64,000 nucleotides of DNA, from NCBI GenBank assembly GCA_040388625.1, contig JAZKBK010000002.1, forward strand, positions 248,001 to 312,000, written 5' to 3'. Position 1 is the first letter of the stretch, and each line of letters opens with the position of its first letter. Below are positions 3,496 to 11,551 of this stretch, piece by piece. The translations under genes were made by a program, and so were the position numbers. The notes under the pieces were generated by a model. That model saw only the letters and a program-made list of their open reading frames with translations, ran no database searches and was not told the origin of the DNA. This stretch comes from Gemmatimonadota bacterium (lineage in GTDB: Bacteria > Gemmatimonadota > Gemmatimonadetes > Gemmatimonadales > Gemmatimonadaceae).

Positions 3496-4026
3496 CTACT
3501 GAACCGTGATGGCCTGCTTCATACCCATTGCGAGGTGCGGCGTGCAGTGCGCCTCGTACGTGCCCGGCGGAATCTTCGCGAACGAGATCGTGTAGGTCTC
3601 ATTCGGCTGAACCAGGAGCTTGCCAGCGAGATCGCTCATCTGATCGGGCATGTTCGCAGATAGCTGCGGCTTGACCGCCGCAGGAATCAGAGCTGGATCG
3701 AATGCAACGTCGTGTGGGCCACCGCTGACGTTGGTGTAGCGGATCCCGTCGCCTTCCTTGATCGTGATCGCGGCTGGCTCAAAACGATAGCCCTTCGCGT
3801 CGCCGATCATCTTCACATCGTGGATCGTACCGGTGATCGGGGCCGCCGCAACAGCACCAGCTGCTGGTGCCGCGGCAGTCGAGGTCGAACCCGCGGCCGC
3901 AGCCGCAGTTGTATCAGTTGCTGGGGTGGTCGCAGCAGCCGTCGTGTCGGCAGCCTTCTCGCCACCGCCGCATGCGGCAAGCATCAAGGCGCTAGCCGCT
4001 ATTGCAGTAAAACCGAAATACCGCAT
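3496..4026 (-). CDS. Plastocyanin-like copper-binding lipoprotein
   Basis: The product has a lipoprotein signal (MRYFGFTAIAASALMLAAC) and an Ala/Thr-rich linker of about 40 residues. A cupredoxin domain of about 105 residues follows. Type 1 copper ligands are visible: His in GGPHDVAFD, then Cys, His and Met in HCTPHLAMGM. It is probably a membrane-anchored electron carrier facing the periplasm. The start at 4026 is chosen because AGGAG sits 10 bases upstream; the ATG at 4035 would touch the same SD. It is divergent from the his operon and ends in a strong terminator. Confidence 0.88.
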   Translation of the reverse strand: MRYFGFTAIAASALMLAACGGGEKAADTTAAATTPATDTTAAAAAGSTSTAAAPAAGAVAAAPITGTIHDVKMIGDAKGYRFEPAAITIKEGDGIRYTNVSGGPHDVAFDPALIPAAVKPQLSANMPDQMSDLAGKLLVQPNETYTISFAKIPPGTYEAHCTPHLAMGMKQAITVQ

Positions 4027-4112
4027 CTGCTTCATTCTCCTAGATAAGTGCGCCCGACGAGCGCTCTCGCCGAGCATTGTGAAACTATTCACAAACCGCG
4101 CCTAATTCAATG

Positions 4113-4141
4113 TTGACAACAAATCCGTCTCCGACCACATT
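4113..4141 (+). promoter_or_regulatory. Candidate his operon promoter
   Basis: A perfect -35 hexamer TTGACA (4113-4118) is followed after 17 bases by CACATT (4136-4141), a weak -10 with three of six consensus bases. The predicted transcription start falls at or very near the leader peptide ATG at 4148. This is inferred from spacing only. Confidence 0.45.
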
Positions 4142-4147
4142 GAAGGC

Positions 4148-4219
4148 ATGGCCCGTACCGCAACCCACCATGCTCATCATCTCCATGTCCTGACGGACCG
4201 GGGATTTTGTCGCACGTGA
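4148..4219 (+). CDS. hisL: Histidine operon leader peptide
   Basis: This 23-codon ORF (ATG 4148, TGA 4217-4219) reads MARTATHHAHHLHVLTDRGF then CRT. Five of residues 7-13 are histidine (7, 8, 10, 11, 13). It precedes a terminator hairpin and hisG, which is the arrangement of the his attenuator leader peptide in enteric bacteria. Ribosome stalling at the His codons when charged tRNA-His is scarce would control readthrough. No standard Shine-Dalgarno is seen: AAGG ends only one base before the ATG. Initiation on a leaderless transcript is therefore possible. Confidence 0.82.
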   Translation: MARTATHHAHHLHVLTDRGFCRT

Positions 4220-4259
4220 TGGGCTGACCAGCCATACCATCCGCGATCTCCGGCCCGTC
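4192..4259 (+). promoter_or_regulatory. his attenuator antiterminator pairing
   Basis: Bases 4192-4201 (GACGGACCGG), just after the last His codon, can pair with 4250-4259 (CCGGCCCGTC) in nine of ten positions, with a single A-C mismatch. The second segment is the 5' arm of the terminator, so the two structures exclude each other. A ribosome stalled on the His codons leaves 4192-4201 free. A ribosome reaching the stop codon would cover it. This fits classical attenuation; it was derived by hand without energy calculation. Confidence 0.7.
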
Positions 4260-4283
4260 CTTCTGGACGGGCTTTTTTGTTTT
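4253..4283 (+). terminator. his attenuator intrinsic terminator
   Basis: A perfect 8-bp stem (GCCCGTCC 4253-4260, GGACGGGC 4265-4272) with a TTCT loop is followed directly by six T (4273-4278) and more T-rich sequence. It lies between the His-rich leader and hisG, in the direction of the operon. Confidence 0.9.
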
Positions 4284-4314
4284 CCAGTCCAATCTTCTCC
4301 TATTTCACACTCAA

Positions 4315-5238
4315 ATGACCCCGGCTGAATTCCAGCTCGAACCATTGGCTTCCCGCACCCTGATCCCCCCGGTCCTCCGGATCGCGCTTCCGAACAAGGG
4401 GCGTCTGGCCCAGGATACGCGCGATCTTTTCACCGACGCAGGCCTCGAAGTCCGCGCTTCCAGCGATCGAGCCCTCAAGGCCTCACTCGGCGCAGACTTC
4501 GAGGCAATCTTCGTTCGGGCCCAGGATATCCCTGAGTTCGTGTCCGACGGCGCCGCAGACGCAGGAGTTACAGGGCTGGACCTCATCGCCGAGAACAGGC
4601 GCGGTGTGGTCTCCAGACTCGACCTCGGATTCGGAAAATGCCGCCTCTCCATGGCCGCCCGGGAGGAAAGCGGAGTCGATGATTTCTGCCAATTACCGCC
4701 GCGGTCCCGGGTTGCAACGGCATTCCCCAACATCACGGCACGCTTTTGCGCCGAGGCTGGGCTCGATCTCGAGATAGTGCCGATCTCGGGCGCCGCCGAG
4801 ATCGCGCCTCACCTTGGCATCGCTGACGTCATCGTGGACCTGGTCTCCACGGGATCCACCCTCAAGACCAACGGTCTGCGAGAGATCGGCACCATAATGC
4901 AGTCCACGGCCCAGCTGGTCGTCGCCGAGAATCGGACCGCCTGGCCCGCTGCCAAGGAAACGGCTCTGCAGGAGCTGTGTACGGCACTCGAGTCAGTGAC
5001 CTCTGCACGCGGCCAGCGCTACCTCATGGCCAATGTGCCACGAGACCGTCTCGACGAAGTCCGTCAGGTCCTTCCAGGACTCAACGGCCCTACCGTAATC
5101 GACGTCCTCGACGGAGGCAGACATGTCGCCGTTCACGCGGTCGTGGCCGCGTCTGCGATATATCGAACTATTGCGGATTTGAAGGCAATCGGGGGAGAAG
5201 GGATTCTCGTAACTCGCATCGAGAGACTGATGCGATGA
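4315..5238 (+). CDS. hisG: ATP phosphoribosyltransferase, long form
   Basis: HisG catalyses the first step of histidine synthesis, joining ATP and PRPP, and is normally feedback-inhibited by histidine. The 307-residue protein shows the family N-terminal core (LRIALPNKGRLAQDTRDLF) preceded by an extra ~20 residues. The PRPP loop (DLVSTGSTLKTNGLREI) is present. A C-terminal region of about 75 residues ending GGEGILVTRIERLM is the ACT-like regulatory domain of the long, HisZ-independent form. No SD is evident before the ATG at 4315. It is the first structural gene after the attenuator and overlaps hisD by 4 bases (ATGA). Confidence 0.96.
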   Translation: MTPAEFQLEPLASRTLIPPVLRIALPNKGRLAQDTRDLFTDAGLEVRASSDRALKASLGADFEAIFVRAQDIPEFVSDGAADAGVTGLDLIAENRRGVVSRLDLGFGKCRLSMAAREESGVDDFCQLPPRSRVATAFPNITARFCAEAGLDLEIVPISGAAEIAPHLGIADVIVDLVSTGSTLKTNGLREIGTIMQSTAQLVVAENRTAWPAAKETALQELCTALESVTSARGQRYLMANVPRDRLDEVRQVLPGLNGPTVIDVLDGGRHVAVHAVVAASAIYRTIADLKAIGGEGILVTRIERLMR

Positions 5239-6560
5239 TAAGCGATCCTAACTTGCGTAAAGTTTGGCTAACAGAGCGTATATCCAGCCTCACAGATAGC
5301 TCTAAAAAAACGCTTTTCTCGCGTAGCTCTTCGTCAGGTGATGCGGTTGCGGTCGCGACGGCAGCACTCCTTGATGCAGTCAGGCTCCGCGGTGACAAGG
5401 CCCTGTCTGAGATGGCGAGGGACTTCGATGGAGTCCATATGGCCGCCTTCGAGATCGCTCGCCCAGCCTGGCGGGCTGCTCTCGACTCCCTCGATCGCAG
5501 TCTCGTCGGGGCGATGGAGCGAAGCATCCGGAATCTCGAATCCGTGCAGCGGGCCTTCCTCCCAACGACCTCGGAGACGTCGCCCGAACCGGGTATCCTC
5601 GTCGGGCGCCGGCCGGATCCTATCGATAGAGTCGGCATCTATGCGCCAGGGGGGCGTGCCGCCTATCCAAGCAGTGTCTTGATGGGGGCAGTCCCAGCCC
5701 GGGTAGCCGGCGTGCGTGAACTGATCCTTTGCTCGCCGCCTGGTCCGTCAGGACTTCCGTCCGCGGTAGTTCTTGCGGCCGCCGAGCTTGCGAACGTCGA
5801 CCGAGTATTCGCACTCGGCGGGGCAGGGGCAATTGGCGCGATGGCGTATGGAACGGAGACCGTCCCAGGCGTGGATCGGATAGTCGGGCCTGGAAACGCA
5901 TATGTTGCCGAGGCCAAGCTCCAGGTAGCGGGTGTTGTTGCGATCGACTCGCCGGCTGGCCCGAGCGAGCTGCTCGTAATCGCTGACGCGACTTCCGACG
6001 CTGACGTGGTGGTACGGGAGGCGCTGGCTCAGGCAGAGCACGATCCACGTGCGGTTGTCGTGGTCGTTGCCATCGGGCAGAGTGTCGCGGACTGTATTGT
6101 CGAGCGGCTCGTCGGCGCGACTTCGGCGCAGACCAGGCGCGAGGTCATCGAAGAGTCGCTACGAACGCGCGGCGCGGTATTGTGCGCGGCGGACGTCGAC
6201 GAGGCGATCGCTTTCAGCAACTCTTTCGCGCCGGAGCATCTGCTTCTCGCGGTAGCGAATGCACGCGAGCTGCTTCCGCGCTGCCGTAACGCGGGGACGA
6301 TATTTGTCGGCGAGCGCAGCTCCGTTGCGTTTGGTGATTACATGACCGGCGCCAATCACGTTCTTCCGACGGGTGGGCTTGCACGCTCCTACTCGGGTCT
6401 GTCGGTGCTCGACTTCATGCGCTGGACGACATACCAGGTGATCGATCCTGCCGTCGCGAAGGGTTTGACGGAAGACGTTGGAGTATTCGCAGATGCGGAG
6501 GGTTTGCCTGCGCACGCCGCGGCAGCACGACAGTGGATGTCCGTCGGAGCGGCACAGTGA
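5235..6560 (+). CDS. hisD: Histidinol dehydrogenase
   Basis: HisD performs the last two steps of the pathway, oxidising histidinol to histidine with two NAD+. The 441-residue product has the family landmarks DRVGIYAPGGRAAYPSSVLM, GPGNAYVAEAK, SPAGPSELLVIAD, AQAEHDPRA and FAPEHLLL, which include the zinc and catalytic Glu/His residues. The start at 5235 is chosen because its ATG overlaps the hisG stop (ATGA). A longer frame opens upstream inside hisG but has no homology there. It overlaps hisC through GTGA. Length is normal for the family. Confidence 0.97.
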   Translation: MISDPNLRKVWLTERISSLTDSSKKTLFSRSSSSGDAVAVATAALLDAVRLRGDKALSEMARDFDGVHMAAFEIARPAWRAALDSLDRSLVGAMERSIRNLESVQRAFLPTTSETSPEPGILVGRRPDPIDRVGIYAPGGRAAYPSSVLMGAVPARVAGVRELILCSPPGPSGLPSAVVLAAAELANVDRVFALGGAGAIGAMAYGTETVPGVDRIVGPGNAYVAEAKLQVAGVVAIDSPAGPSELLVIADATSDADVVVREALAQAEHDPRAVVVVVAIGQSVADCIVERLVGATSAQTRREVIEESLRTRGAVLCAADVDEAIAFSNSFAPEHLLLAVANARELLPRCRNAGTIFVGERSSVAFGDYMTGANHVLPTGGLARSYSGLSVLDFMRWTTYQVIDPAVAKGLTEDVGVFADAEGLPAHAAAARQWMSVGAAQ

Positions 6561-7588
6561 CACGCGAAAGCTACAGGTCCATTTCGCTGTATGCCCCGAA
6601 CCGTGCGCCGGCAGCTATAGATCTCAGCGACAATACCAACCTCTGGGGTGTTCCTCCGGCTGCTCTGAGTGCGATTACAGATGCCGCGTCGGGCACGATC
6701 ACGCGTTATCCGGCGTTGTACGCGGCGGATGTGAAGCAGGCGATCGCAGATTATGCAGGAGTGGCACCTGAGATGGTGGTGACCGGATGCGGCTCGGACG
6801 ACGTACTTGACTCCGCGATCCGCGCGTTTGGTGAGCCGGGTGATGTTGTTGCTTATCCCGATCCCTCGTTCGCGATGATTCCCATCTTCGCTCGGATGAA
6901 CGGCCTCGTCGGCGCGCCGATTCCGCTTACAGCACAGTACGATGCGGACGTCCAGCGATACATCGAGACAAACGCGATTATTAGTTACCTGTGTTCGCCG
7001 AACAACCCTACCGGTGCATCCTTCTCGCGCGACGCGATCGAACGGGTCGCCTCTGGTGTTACGGGTATCGTGATCATCGATGAAGCATACGCCGAGTTCG
7101 CGGGCTGGAACTGTCTGGATTTGCTGGCGCGGTTTCCCCGTGTCGTGATCACGCGCACGTTATCCAAGGCGTTCGGCCTGGCCGGTCTTCGGGTTGGTTA
7201 TGCGCTGGGTGATCCGGAGCTGGTAGCGGAGATAGAGAAATCGCGCGGACCATACAAGGTGAATGCGATCGCTCAACACGCAGCAGTTGCAGCTCTCACG
7301 GCAGACCGTGCCTGGGTCGATCGCCACGTTCGGGATGCCATTGTGAATCGCGACCGATTGCGAGAATCGCTCATGGCGATTGGGTTGGAGCCGTTGCCAA
7401 GTGACAGCAACTTCGTGCTGGTCCCTGTCAGGAATGCAGCGGAGCTCGATCGGCAGTTGCGTACGCGCGGCATCGCCGTTCGGCCATTCGTTGCGCTACC
7501 CAATATCGGAGACGCCTTGCGCATATCGGTTGGCCCGTGGCAGCTGCTGGAAGAATGCATCGCCGCATTGCAGGAGTGCGCTATATGA
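6557..7588 (+). CDS. hisC: Histidinol-phosphate aminotransferase
   Basis: HisC is a PLP enzyme transferring an amino group to imidazole-acetol phosphate. The 343-residue product shows the fold-type I pattern: LSDNTNLWG at the N-terminus, CSPNNPTG, IDEAYAEF and TRTLSKAFGLAGLRVGYA, which contains the PLP-binding lysine. The start is the GTG at 6557, whose last bases form the hisD stop (GTGA). An upstream ATG at 6533 would overlap hisD by 28 bases and is less likely. It overlaps hisH by ATGA. Confidence 0.95.
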   Translation: MTRESYRSISLYAPNRAPAAIDLSDNTNLWGVPPAALSAITDAASGTITRYPALYAADVKQAIADYAGVAPEMVVTGCGSDDVLDSAIRAFGEPGDVVAYPDPSFAMIPIFARMNGLVGAPIPLTAQYDADVQRYIETNAIISYLCSPNNPTGASFSRDAIERVASGVTGIVIIDEAYAEFAGWNCLDLLARFPRVVITRTLSKAFGLAGLRVGYALGDPELVAEIEKSRGPYKVNAIAQHAAVAALTADRAWVDRHVRDAIVNRDRLRESLMAIGLEPLPSDSNFVLVPVRNAAELDRQLRTRGIAVRPFVALPNIGDALRISVGPWQLLEECIAALQECAI

Positions 7589-8181
7589 ACGGGAAGACAA
7601 TCATCACCGTCTTCGACTACGGCGCCGGCAACATGCATTCGCTGCTGAAGGCTCTGGACATCGGGGGCGATGTCGAAGTGCGAATGCAGACCGACCCAGA
7701 GGAAGCGCTGGAAACTGACGCGCTGGTTCTGCCCGGGGTGGGGGCCTTCACCAATGCGGCTGGCAGGCTTGCATCCGGTGCTCCCGCGATGCGCGATGCG
7801 ATCCTCGCCGGTTTACCGACTCTCTGCATCTGTCTCGGGATGCAGCTGCTCTTCGACGACAGCGAGGAGGGACCTGGCACAGGACTCGGCGTCATACCAG
7901 GCCACGTGCGCAGGCTCAGAGCGAGGAGGATTCCCCAGATTGGATGGAATGAAGTCGAATCGCTCGATGAAGCGCTGCCGCAGGTTGCATATTTCGCGAA
8001 CAGCTATGTATGCGAACCGGATGATGACGACTGTATCACGGCATATACGACCCATGAACGCGACCGATTCGCTTCGGTCGTGACTGTCGCCAACACTGTC
8101 GGGGTGCAGTTCCATCCCGAGAAGAGCTCCCGGGCGGGAGTCAGCTTCGTGCGAGACTTCGTCAACGGAGTGATTCGATGA
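7585..8181 (+). CDS. hisH: Imidazole glycerol phosphate synthase, glutaminase subunit
   Basis: HisH releases ammonia from glutamine and channels it to HisF. The 198-residue class I glutamine amidotransferase has the nucleophile elbow (LCICLGMQLLF, catalytic Cys), the oxyanion PGVGAF region, and the His-Glu pair (VQFHPEKSS). The ATG at 7585 overlaps the hisC stop (ATGA), and the stop at 8179-8181 overlaps hisA the same way. The HisF partner is encoded three genes downstream in the same transcript. Confidence 0.96.
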   Translation: MNGKTIITVFDYGAGNMHSLLKALDIGGDVEVRMQTDPEEALETDALVLPGVGAFTNAAGRLASGAPAMRDAILAGLPTLCICLGMQLLFDDSEEGPGTGLGVIPGHVRRLRARRIPQIGWNEVESLDEALPQVAYFANSYVCEPDDDDCITAYTTHERDRFASVVTVANTVGVQFHPEKSSRAGVSFVRDFVNGVIR

Positions 8182-8891
8182 TCGCGATACCAGCGATAGA
8201 CATTCGCGATGGAGCGTGCGTTCAGCTCGTTGGCGGTTCGTATGACGCGGAGCAGGTGAGGCTGGATGACCCTCCCGGCGTCGCGCATAAGTGGGAGTTT
8301 GCGGGCTTTCGCCGTCTGCATGTCGTCGACCTCGACGCGGCGACCGGACGCGGCAACAACGCGGAGATGATCCGTGAGGTGTTGCGCGCAACTTCAATGG
8401 AAGCACAGGTGGGCGGCGGCGTACGCGATGAAGATCGAATCGAGTCGCTGCTTCGGGATGGCGCGCAACGCGTGGTTCTTGGTACGAAGGCGGTCGAGAG
8501 CGCCAACTGGCTCGGTGACATGGCGGAAGCATTTCCGGGTACGTTGATCGTAGCCGCCGATGTACGCGACCGGCATGTCGTCACGAGAGGCTGGACGCGT
8601 ACATCGGACCGTTACGTGCTGGATTTCATTGAGGAGCTCAACGCACTTCCGCTGGCCGGTGTAATGGTCACGGCCGTGCACAAGGAAGGTCTCATGGAAG
8701 GAACCGATCTCTCTCTCATGGAAGATGTGGTGGAGGAGAGCGAGCATCCGGTGTGTGCCAGCGGCGGTATAGGCACGATCGGTGATCTACGTGCACTCGA
8801 GGACCGGGGAGTGGCATCAGTTGTCATAGGGATGGCGCTATATACGGGCGCTATCGATCCAGGAGCCGTTGCTGAGGAGTTTGCCGAATGA
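8178..8891 (+). CDS. hisA: ProFAR isomerase
   Basis: HisA is a (beta/alpha)8 barrel that opens the ribose of ProFAR to give PRFAR, the HisF substrate. The 237-residue product has the catalytic Asp in IPAIDIRDGACVQL. It also has the phosphate-binding GGGVRDEDRIESLL loop and the second-half ASGGIGTIGDLRAL loop. ATGA overlaps join it to hisH and hisB. Length and motifs are ordinary for the family. A dual HisA/TrpF (PriA) role cannot be excluded, because no trpF is seen in the window. Confidence 0.95.
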   Translation: MIAIPAIDIRDGACVQLVGGSYDAEQVRLDDPPGVAHKWEFAGFRRLHVVDLDAATGRGNNAEMIREVLRATSMEAQVGGGVRDEDRIESLLRDGAQRVVLGTKAVESANWLGDMAEAFPGTLIVAADVRDRHVVTRGWTRTSDRYVLDFIEELNALPLAGVMVTAVHKEGLMEGTDLSLMEDVVEESEHPVCASGGIGTIGDLRALEDRGVASVVIGMALYTGAIDPGAVAEEFAE

Positions 8892-9439
8892 GTGAAAGAA
8901 CAGTGGTGGAGCGCAAGACGCGCGAGACGCAGATCCGGCTCGAGGTTCAGCGTGGAGAAGGGAAGGGTGACGTTGCAACCGGTGTTCCGTTTCTGGATCA
9001 CATGATGGTTACGTTCGCACGCTACTCGGGCCTCGACGTGACCTTGCGCGCGACTGGCGATCTGAGACATCACACCATCGAGGATGTGGCGATCGCGATG
9101 GGCTCGGCGATCGCTGACGTTATCAAACCGTCCGCGGCACGCTACGGCGATTGTACCATTCCGATGGATGAGGCGCTGGTTCAGGCGTGCGTAGATATGG
9201 GTGGCCGTCCCTATTATAGAGGGCCGGTGCCGAGTGGTCTGTACGATCACTGGATGCGTTCCTTCGCGGACAATGCGAAGGCGACGATCCACATTCGTGT
9301 CCTGCGCGGCGTCGACCGGCACCACATTGTTGAAGCTGCGTTCAAGGCTCTCGGTTTGGCGATTCGCAAGGCGATGATCGACACTGGAGCTGGCGCCGTA
9401 TTCAGCACCAAGGGTTCCGTTTCGCTGGACGTGAAGTGA
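8888..9439 (+). CDS. hisB: Imidazoleglycerol-phosphate dehydratase
   Basis: This is the monofunctional IGP dehydratase (183 aa), without the N-terminal phosphatase found in enteric HisB. It is slightly shorter than the usual 190-200 residues. The manganese-binding motifs are present twice, as expected: [12 protein letters not shown] and [14 protein letters not shown], with FLDHMM near the start. The phosphatase step is supplied by hisN two genes further on. The ATG at 8888 overlaps the hisA stop. The hisB stop overlaps the GTG of hisF. Confidence 0.96.
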
Positions 9440-10200
9440 CTCTCACGCGCAGACTGATCGTGTGTCTCGACGTCAGGGACGGCCGGGTGGTGAAGGGAAC
9501 GCGCTTTGTGAATCTTCGCGACGTTGGTGATCCAGTCGAGTTGGCTGCTCGATACGAAGCGGAAGGCGCCGATGAGATAGTCTTTCTGGATATCTCGGCG
9601 AGTGTCGAAGGGCGCGGTACGCTGCTGGATGTGGCGCGGCGAACCGCCGAGAAGCTGTTCATTCCGCTTACCATCGGTGGTGGAGTGCGAGGCGCGGCTG
9701 ACGTGGCTCAGGTGCTGCGCGCGGGCGCGGACAAGGTGGCAATCAATTCTGCCGCCGTACGGAATCCGGAAGTGCTCAGCGAGGCGTCGGCGATGTTCGG
9801 TGCTCAATGTGTCGTGTCCAGCATAGACGCCAGACTGATCGACGGATCCTGGCGCGTGGTCACCCATGGCGGACGCACCGCAACCGGACTTGACGCCATT
9901 GAGTGGGCGCGCGAGTGCGAGAGGCTCGGTGCAGGCGAGATCCTTCTGACGAGCATCGATCGTGACGGATCTCGTGATGGATACGATATCGACCTGACCT
10001 GCGCCGTCGCGGACGCCGTGAGCGTGCCCGTTATTGCATCCGGCGGTGCGGGTTCTGCGCATGACGTAGTGGACGTCATTCAATCGGGGCACGCGGATGC
10101 GGCGCTGGTTGCTGGTATCCTGCATGACGGTACGACGACCGTATCCGAGCTCAAGACATACATGAGAGAGTCACTATTGCCTGTGAGAGATGCTGCGTGA
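9436..10200 (+). CDS. hisF: Imidazole glycerol phosphate synthase, cyclase subunit
   Basis: HisF is the barrel subunit that uses HisH-derived ammonia to convert PRFAR to IGP and AICAR. The 254-residue product carries the catalytic Asp in [16 protein letters not shown] and the second Asp in [15 protein letters not shown]. Phosphate-binding loops [11 protein letters not shown] and [11 protein letters not shown] are present. Translation starts at the GTG at 9436, overlapping the hisB stop (GTGA). It ends overlapping the GTG of hisN. HisF resembles HisA in the same operon, as is usual. Confidence 0.96.
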
Positions 10201-10964
10201 GCGAATCATATCTTGATGCCGTTACCGAGCTTGCGCGCATTGCAGGCGACTTTGCGATGTCGCACTATGGCAAGTCACTCACTGTAGATGTGAAGCACGA
10301 TGGATCTCCCGTGACTGTCGCTGATCGCGGTGCAGAGGAGCGCGCTCGCGCGTGGATCGAGAAGCGGTTTCCTGAAGACGGGATTCTGGGCGAGGAGTTC
10401 GGCGATGTGCGTCCAACCGCGCGGAGACGCTGGATTCTCGATCCGATCGATGGGACCAGGAGTTTCATCAGAAGAGTTCCACTATGGGGAACGCTCATCG
10501 CCGTCACCGAAGGAGAATCCGTGCTCGCGGGGTGCGCATATTTTCCGGCGGTCGCCGAGACTGTGGCTGCGGCAGCAGGGGAGGGATGCTTCTGGAACGG
10601 TGTGCGCTGCAGCGTATCATCGACCGCAACGATCGCCGAATCTACCATCGCGATAACCGATGATCGGTTCGAAGGGCGCCCTGAACGCGCAACTGCATGG
10701 CGGCGGCTCGCCGCGCAGGCCAGCGTATCGCGCACGTGGGGCGACTGCTACGGGTATCTTCTGCTTGCAACCGGGCGAGCCGACGTGATGGTCGACGACG
10801 TGGTAGCACCGTGGGATTCGGCTGCGCTCTATCCAATAGTTACCGAAGCTGGCGGCTCGTTCACGGATTGGAGTGGCACAGCCACGGCCTTCGGCGGTGA
10901 CATCATCGCCACCAACGCTGCTCTGGCCGGGCCGGTGCGGGACCTGCTGGTTGCAGCATCATGA
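10197..10964 (+). CDS. hisN: Histidinol-phosphatase, inositol monophosphatase family
   Basis: The 255-residue product belongs to the IMPase superfamily. Metal-binding motifs are GEEFGD (Glu), [20 protein letters not shown] (DPIDGT) and the C-terminal [15 protein letters not shown]. Its position between hisF and hisIE, with 4-base overlaps on both sides, identifies it as the histidinol-phosphate phosphatase of the pathway, like HisN of Actinobacteria. It thus completes the step missing from the monofunctional HisB. The start is the GTG at 10197. Activity on inositol phosphate is possible but unlikely in this context. Confidence 0.9.
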
Positions 10965-11551
10965 CAGTCGGCGATCTGGATTTCAGCAAGGGCGGCGGTC
11001 TCGTCACGGTGGTGACGCAGGACGCGGTGACCGGTGCGGTGCTGATGGTCGCGCACATGGATCGTGAGGCATTTGAAAAGACCGTCGAGACTGGTGAGAT
11101 GCACTATCGCTCCCGCTCGCGCGGGCTGTGGCACAAGGGTGCTACGAGCGGAAACGTGCAGCATGTGGTATCGCTTACGCCTGATTGTGATGGCGATGCA
11201 ATTCTCGCCCGTGTGAGAGCGGCCGGTCCGGCATGTCACAACGGCACAATCTCATGCTTCGATCAACCGGCGAATGGAGATGCGCTCACCGGGCTCGCGT
11301 CGGTGATCGAGTCTCGTGCACAGAATGCGGACGGTGAGAGCTATACGAGGAAGTTGCTCGCTGATCGCAATCTGCGACTCAAGAAGCTCGGCGAGGAAAC
11401 CGCCGAGCTGGTGCTTGCGCTCGCTGATGAAGACCGCGATCGCGCGACGGAAGAAGCAGCAGATCTGATGTACCACATGATGGTCGCGCTGCGCGCGCAG
11501 AACATTTTGCTGGATCAGGTACGAGGCGTGATTTCGGCGCGCAATCGATAG
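10961..11551 (+). CDS. hisI: Bifunctional PRA-CH / PRA-PH
   Basis: This HisIE fusion carries out steps 2 and 3 of the pathway. Residues 1-105 are the phosphoribosyl-AMP cyclohydrolase domain with zinc/magnesium motifs ([25 protein letters not shown] and CHNG). Residues ~110-196 are the all-helical phosphoribosyl-ATP pyrophosphatase domain ([25 protein letters not shown]). The ATG at 10961 overlaps hisN. It is the ninth and last gene of the operon. No clear intrinsic terminator follows. Confidence 0.95.

Follow-up and report, generated by a model that had tools for sequence, protein, structure and literature searches.

A putative ribosome-mediated attenuator with a histidine-rich leader peptide upstream of the his operon in Gemmatimonadota

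The leader region of the his operon

Does a ribosome translating a short, histidine-rich leader decide whether the his operon of this Gemmatimonadota bacterium is transcribed? The question is raised by the region between a divergent plastocyanin-like gene and hisG in the 64,000-nucleotide stretch analysed here, which we call the window, and where the following features are found:

3496-4092, minus strand: plastocyanin-like gene, reading away from the leader (ORF list and profile match)
4148-4219, plus strand: leader peptide ORF of 23 codons plus TGA, encoding MARTATHHAHHLHVLTDRGFCRT and conserved upstream of hisG across the class
4166-4186, plus strand: candidate regulatory His codons 7, 8, 10, 11, and 13 of the leader ORF
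4315-5238, plus strand: hisG, first gene of the regulated operon (NCBIfam TIGR00070 and TIGR03455)
5235-11551, plus strand: hisD, hisC, hisH, hisA, hisB, hisF, hisN, and hisIE, overlapping or nearly so (NCBIfam, ORF list)

All nine genes of the operon, in the order hisG-D-C-H-A-B-F-N-IE, are matched by NCBIfam, and a sequence-only reading of this DNA had already spoken of a nine-gene his operon; the starts of hisD and hisH were placed from the sequence. That reading had also described a 23-codon ORF with five histidines within residues 7-13, which is present at 4148-4219. Attenuators of this class typically have a short leader ORF in which codons for the amino acid made by the operon abound. 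When the two strands of the window are read from start to stop over lengths of 8-45 codons, 2504 readings result, and of these the leader ORF alone has five histidines within seven residues. It is likewise the only one of the window's short ORFs rich in a single amino acid to precede a strong terminator.

The host genome, a Gemmatimonadota assembly of 3.84 Mb, has its closest named hisG (98% identical) in a metagenome-assembled genome (MAG) titled “Gemmatimonadetes bacterium,” and the window also carries a bacterial class A RNase P RNA (RF00010; 63095-63483, 294.7 bits). In this genome and a near relative (G013), the model for the ilvB-type acetolactate synthase has no match, while other relatives do match; branched-chain amino-acid auxotrophy or a divergent enzyme is possible.

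Mutually exclusive pairings

Four segments, the last of them (D) being the partner of C in the terminator, provide the predicted alternative folds:

4179-4190, plus strand: segment A, which overlaps codons 11-15 and, paired with 4195-4205 in the predicted fold, supplies the 5′ arm of the protector hairpin
4192-4205, plus strand: segment B, with alternative partners A (through 4195-4205) or C (through 4192-4203, the antiterminator)
4248-4260, plus strand: segment C, comprising the antiterminator 3′ arm (4248-4259) and the terminator 5′ arm (from 4252)
4252-4278, plus strand: intrinsic terminator C:D, GGCCCGUCC-UUCU-GGACGGGCU, with U6 at 4273-4278

As in the attenuator class, the terminator follows the leader ORF and precedes the first gene of the operon. 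Its stem had been called a perfect 8-bp helix followed by six T, and this is what the sequence holds: 4253-4260 and 4265-4272 form 8/8 pairs, and the T run occupies 4273-4278. The proposed pairing of 4192-4201 with 4250-4259 has 9/10 pairs as described; read from the sequence, the antiterminator is longer than first noted, 4192-4203 matching 4248-4259 in 11/12 pairs, with an A-C opposition at 4197/4254 as the sole mismatch. For 4148-4285, the predicted fold exceeds in stability those of 198/200 shuffled sequences (z −2.4). The order of the elements, their spacing, and the mutually exclusive pairings all fit ribosome-mediated attenuation, the mechanism originally suggested for this locus.

Distribution among relatives

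Upstream regions of hisG were sampled in the same order and then over the whole phylum; many of the sampled genomes are metagenome assemblies. In the family of the window (f1), ~60/62 usable loci by our count have a His-rich leader ORF and, after it, a terminator upstream of hisG; this and the counts that follow are of genomes related to one another rather than of independent events. The alternative-pairing segment accompanies leader and terminator at ~60/62 usable loci of this family too, and also in several other families of the class. Leader and terminator are further present at 18/19 loci with a long HisG in family f2, at all five loci of f4, at most loci of f5, in f7, and at the one locus of f8; one f3 genome has both, farther from hisG.

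The f2 genomes with a hisZ-hisG arrangement (L075-L094 and L109; short-form HisG with HisZ upstream) lack the His leader in the ~2 kb searched in all 21 and the up to 10 kb searched in eight, and the leader is absent from the searched hisG upstream stretches of families f6 and f10. When the leader-negative stretches were used as a control, they gave one doubtful match in ~160 kb over both strands. It had been held that relatives without the His codons and the paired segments would speak against attenuation: relatives with the same type of his operon do have these features, and the hisZ-hisG relatives, f6, and f10 lack them. The attenuator thus appears to be tied to the operon type with the long HisG.

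The stem sequences fall into at least three unrelated types with the same layout (GGCCCGUCC, GACGCCGGC, and CCCCGGGG). With the layout kept and the stems swapped wholesale, the phylum lends itself to asking whether attenuators are passed down or arise afresh. When the whole genome that contains the window is searched with a covariance model of the element, one credible copy is found, at hisG; a second match, inside a purF-like/ppdK-like coding region and with no terminator, was rejected as chance. A search upstream of trpE in 13 relatives (this genome included) gave no Trp leader, and attenuation is therefore apparently not general for amino-acid operons here. One locus titled Candidatus Omnitrophota (L003, PLNN01000017.1) has a hisG 82% identical to that of the window and the same leader, and is probably a mislabelled Gemmatimonadota MAG.

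Covariation of the helices

The alignment of hisG upstream regions from related genomes, proposed earlier as a check for covariation, contains conserved helices with paired changes. Over 54 leaders, 96.6% of the cells in helices A:B and C:D are paired, and eight pairs are changed on both sides against 3.1 in shuffled alignments, 0/500 of which reached as many. The terminator C:D alone has 98.8% of cells paired and four pairs changed on both sides. For the antiterminator B:C, 85% of cells are paired, far above every slid version; its excess over shuffles is modest (12-13 of 500), as expected where the same bases of B and C have to serve the A:B and C:D helices as well. Four core pairs of B:C persist in 36-39 of 39 leaders, two other families included. 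Comparing each B:C duplex with duplexes made from swapped segments separates type I from type II stems: in type II, the predicted duplex is weaker, and swapped C segments do at least as well, so that the type II stems rest mainly on layout.

The coding content of segment B allows a further view of the same pairing. One codon within B specifies Thr, Ser, Ala, or Pro in different leaders, yet ends in G in 51/54 of them; this G has no partner in A:B but has one in B:C, and as a sequence pattern it is independent support for the predicted B:C helix. Conserved third codon positions of this kind fit RNA pairing, and not peptide function.

This bears on the idea that the product of the His-rich ORF is a small peptide with a function of its own, such as metal binding, and that the terminator merely trims transcription. 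The ORF is indeed conserved over the class, and many of its copies share a recurrent HGPTGRG run; the run is, however, explained by the RNA, since the amino acids vary while the pairing bases stay. Leader length and C-terminus vary freely among relatives, the His cluster is the very site at which a stalled ribosome flips the predicted fold (see below), and the constant place 5′ of a his operon, together with a terminator, fits a role in cis. We regard a functional peptide as very unlikely and return to attenuation.

Dependence of the fold on ribosome position

Folding with and without a ribosome footprint had also been proposed, and the outcome is that the antiterminator depends on the codon at which the ribosome stands. 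The modelled footprint is set relative to the first base of the A-site codon, from 18 nt upstream to 12 nt downstream. When the ribosome is placed codon by codon on the window's leader, the antiterminator opens only around codons 8-13: its value peaks at 0.47 on His10 and 0.46 on His11, is 0.23 on Leu12, 0.14 on His13, and 0.09-0.10 on codons 8-9, and is at most 0.07 elsewhere, with 0.00 at the stop codon. A mutually exclusive antiterminator that depends on stalling, another mark of the attenuator class, is thus seen in silico.

Of 71 leaders given a stall on a His codon, 56 show more antiterminator and 2 show less; in 15 leaders it never exceeds 0.02 at any codon. Among the 56 informative leaders, the best stalling codon lies inside the His cluster in 48 and is itself a His codon in 30, where 13.7 would be expected. 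Most full-length leaders still favour the terminator at equilibrium despite the stalled ribosome (mean antiterminator 0.19), and the switch would therefore have to be kinetic, as is usual for attenuators. Before D is transcribed, the mean B:C value is 0.77 with a His stall and 0.53 without a ribosome.

These partial shifts of B:C at equilibrium are what could be said for a different kind of control, in which the leader ribosome has no part and either translation of hisG is regulated or a protein or riboswitch ligand is sensed (a T-box or a repressor). The terminator has a U tract, though, and does not mask the hisG start, because ~40 nt separate the two; tandem His codons have no role in such models; and the Rfam scans return no T-box and no other leader family at gathering score. 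Control of this kind seems to us highly improbable, and ribosome-mediated attenuation is the reading that we develop below.

Promoter and a probable leaderless start

Two promoter boxes lie immediately ahead of the leader ORF:

4113-4118, plus strand: −35 box TTGACA, with 5 or 6 of 6 matches in 52/59 relatives
4136-4141, plus strand: −10 box CACATT, weak in the window, following a 17-nt spacer and ending 6 nt before the ATG

The −10 box of nearly all relatives is of the TAnnnT type. Across 59 leaders the order is the same, with a TTGAC-type −35 (of weaker form in seven), 16-18 nt of spacer, a TAnnnT-type −10, and then the ATG. The gap between −10 and ATG is 5-10 nt in 58/59 leaders; in the outlier, which has more ATGs upstream, it is 14 nt. 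Transcription typically starts ~7 nt past the −10 box, so a gap of 5-10 nt places the predicted transcript start at the ATG or within ~3 nt of it, which would leave little or no space for a Shine-Dalgarno site. With its start read from the −10 spacing, the leader mRNA is probably leaderless, and a leaderless translation start is suggested as the norm for these leaders.

Very improbable, too, is an ordinary upstream terminator behind a chance ORF, with the operon promoter downstream of 4283: strong terminators are common, but the divergent gene at 3496-4092 needs none there and, because it is transcribed away from the leader, cannot be served by the one at 4252-4278, promoter, ORF, and terminator are conserved class-wide, and a consensus scan called no promoter-like site between terminator and hisG, although the upstream promoter proposed here, with its weak −10, escapes the same scan.

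A model for attenuation

We assign a probability of about 0.92 to the element being a ribosome-mediated transcription attenuator of the his operon. The basis for this is the elements themselves, their conservation, the covariation, and the codon dependence in silico, from which we infer the start site, stalling, termination, and read-through. In the model, RNA polymerase would start at or a few bases from the ATG at 4148, and ribosomes would load directly on the leaderless leader ORF. With charged tRNA-His in ample supply, the ribosome would pass the His codons and reach the stop codon, where B would either be paired with A or lie in part under the terminating ribosome; with B unavailable, the C:D terminator would form, and transcription would end near 4278. 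When histidine is scarce, the ribosome would stall at His10/His11 and cover A, so that B could pair with C before D is made; no terminator would then form, and hisG to hisIE would be transcribed.

Relation to known attenuators

The sequence-only reading had described this mechanism as known in Proteobacteria, which is true but too narrow: leader-peptide attenuators are published from Proteobacteria and Actinobacteria, and His leaders from bacilli and other Firmicutes (PMC2965389, PMC9413887). The working principle is therefore known, and the phylum appears to be new. We found no paper on leader-peptide attenuation in Gemmatimonadota or Gemmatimonadetes in the open literature searched, which covered few subscription journals. 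The element would bring ribosome-mediated amino-acid attenuation into this phylum, conserved over most of a class.

The enterobacterial his attenuator (hisL; RF00514) shares with the Gemmatimonadota element a short ORF with clustered His codons, alternative hairpins, an intrinsic terminator, and hisG as the first gene. The two differ in that the Gemmatimonadota element is not recognised by RF00514, is probably leaderless where the E. coli his leader is not, has its protector hairpin inside the leader ORF, and makes do with four segments. Rfam scans at gathering and at relaxed thresholds gave no leader family matching the element; the RF00514 model had no match in the window and none over the cut-off in any of 61 genomes of the order (0/61), while the E. 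coli control was found. One weak match below the cut-off, near an amino-acid permease in another genome (G002), was judged to be chance. The element may share descent with the proteobacterial leader or may have arisen independently, the sole pointer to the latter being the non-match to RF00514.

The His leaders of Firmicutes (Bacillus cereus group, Erysipelotrichales, and others), proposed by comparative genomics and having three to five His codons in a row, share the His codons, terminator, and antiterminator, but belong to a different phylum (PMC9413887, PMC2965389). The trpL of Sinorhizobium meliloti has a leaderless leader peptide with the transcript start at the ATG, as our element probably does; it differs in leading trpE(G), in being alphaproteobacterial, and in that its start was measured, where ours is deduced (PMC7298713).

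Leaders with aromatic codons in genus g70

In genus g70 (family f7 of the same class; 11 genomes), the pure His run of the leader is replaced by a mix of Phe, Tyr, and His codons, MTNTHPFFGHYYYHRVRGGR:

L216, 700-830 (also L194 and L218-L226): g70 leaders with Phe/Tyr/His codons upstream of the his operon

Substitutions at these positions are confined to Phe, Tyr, and His, and the operon downstream is hisG-hisC-hisB with further his genes. The stall positions that open the antiterminator, codons 5-13, span the Phe/Tyr/His codons. We see an even chance that the his operon of g70 responds to aromatic amino acids besides histidine, with HisC perhaps also serving aromatic synthesis. The numbers of class I/II aminotransferase matches, 20-21 in each g70 genome against 13-19 in genus g66, speak neither for nor against such a role of HisC. 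The genus offers a natural case in which a leader may have switched to other amino acids.
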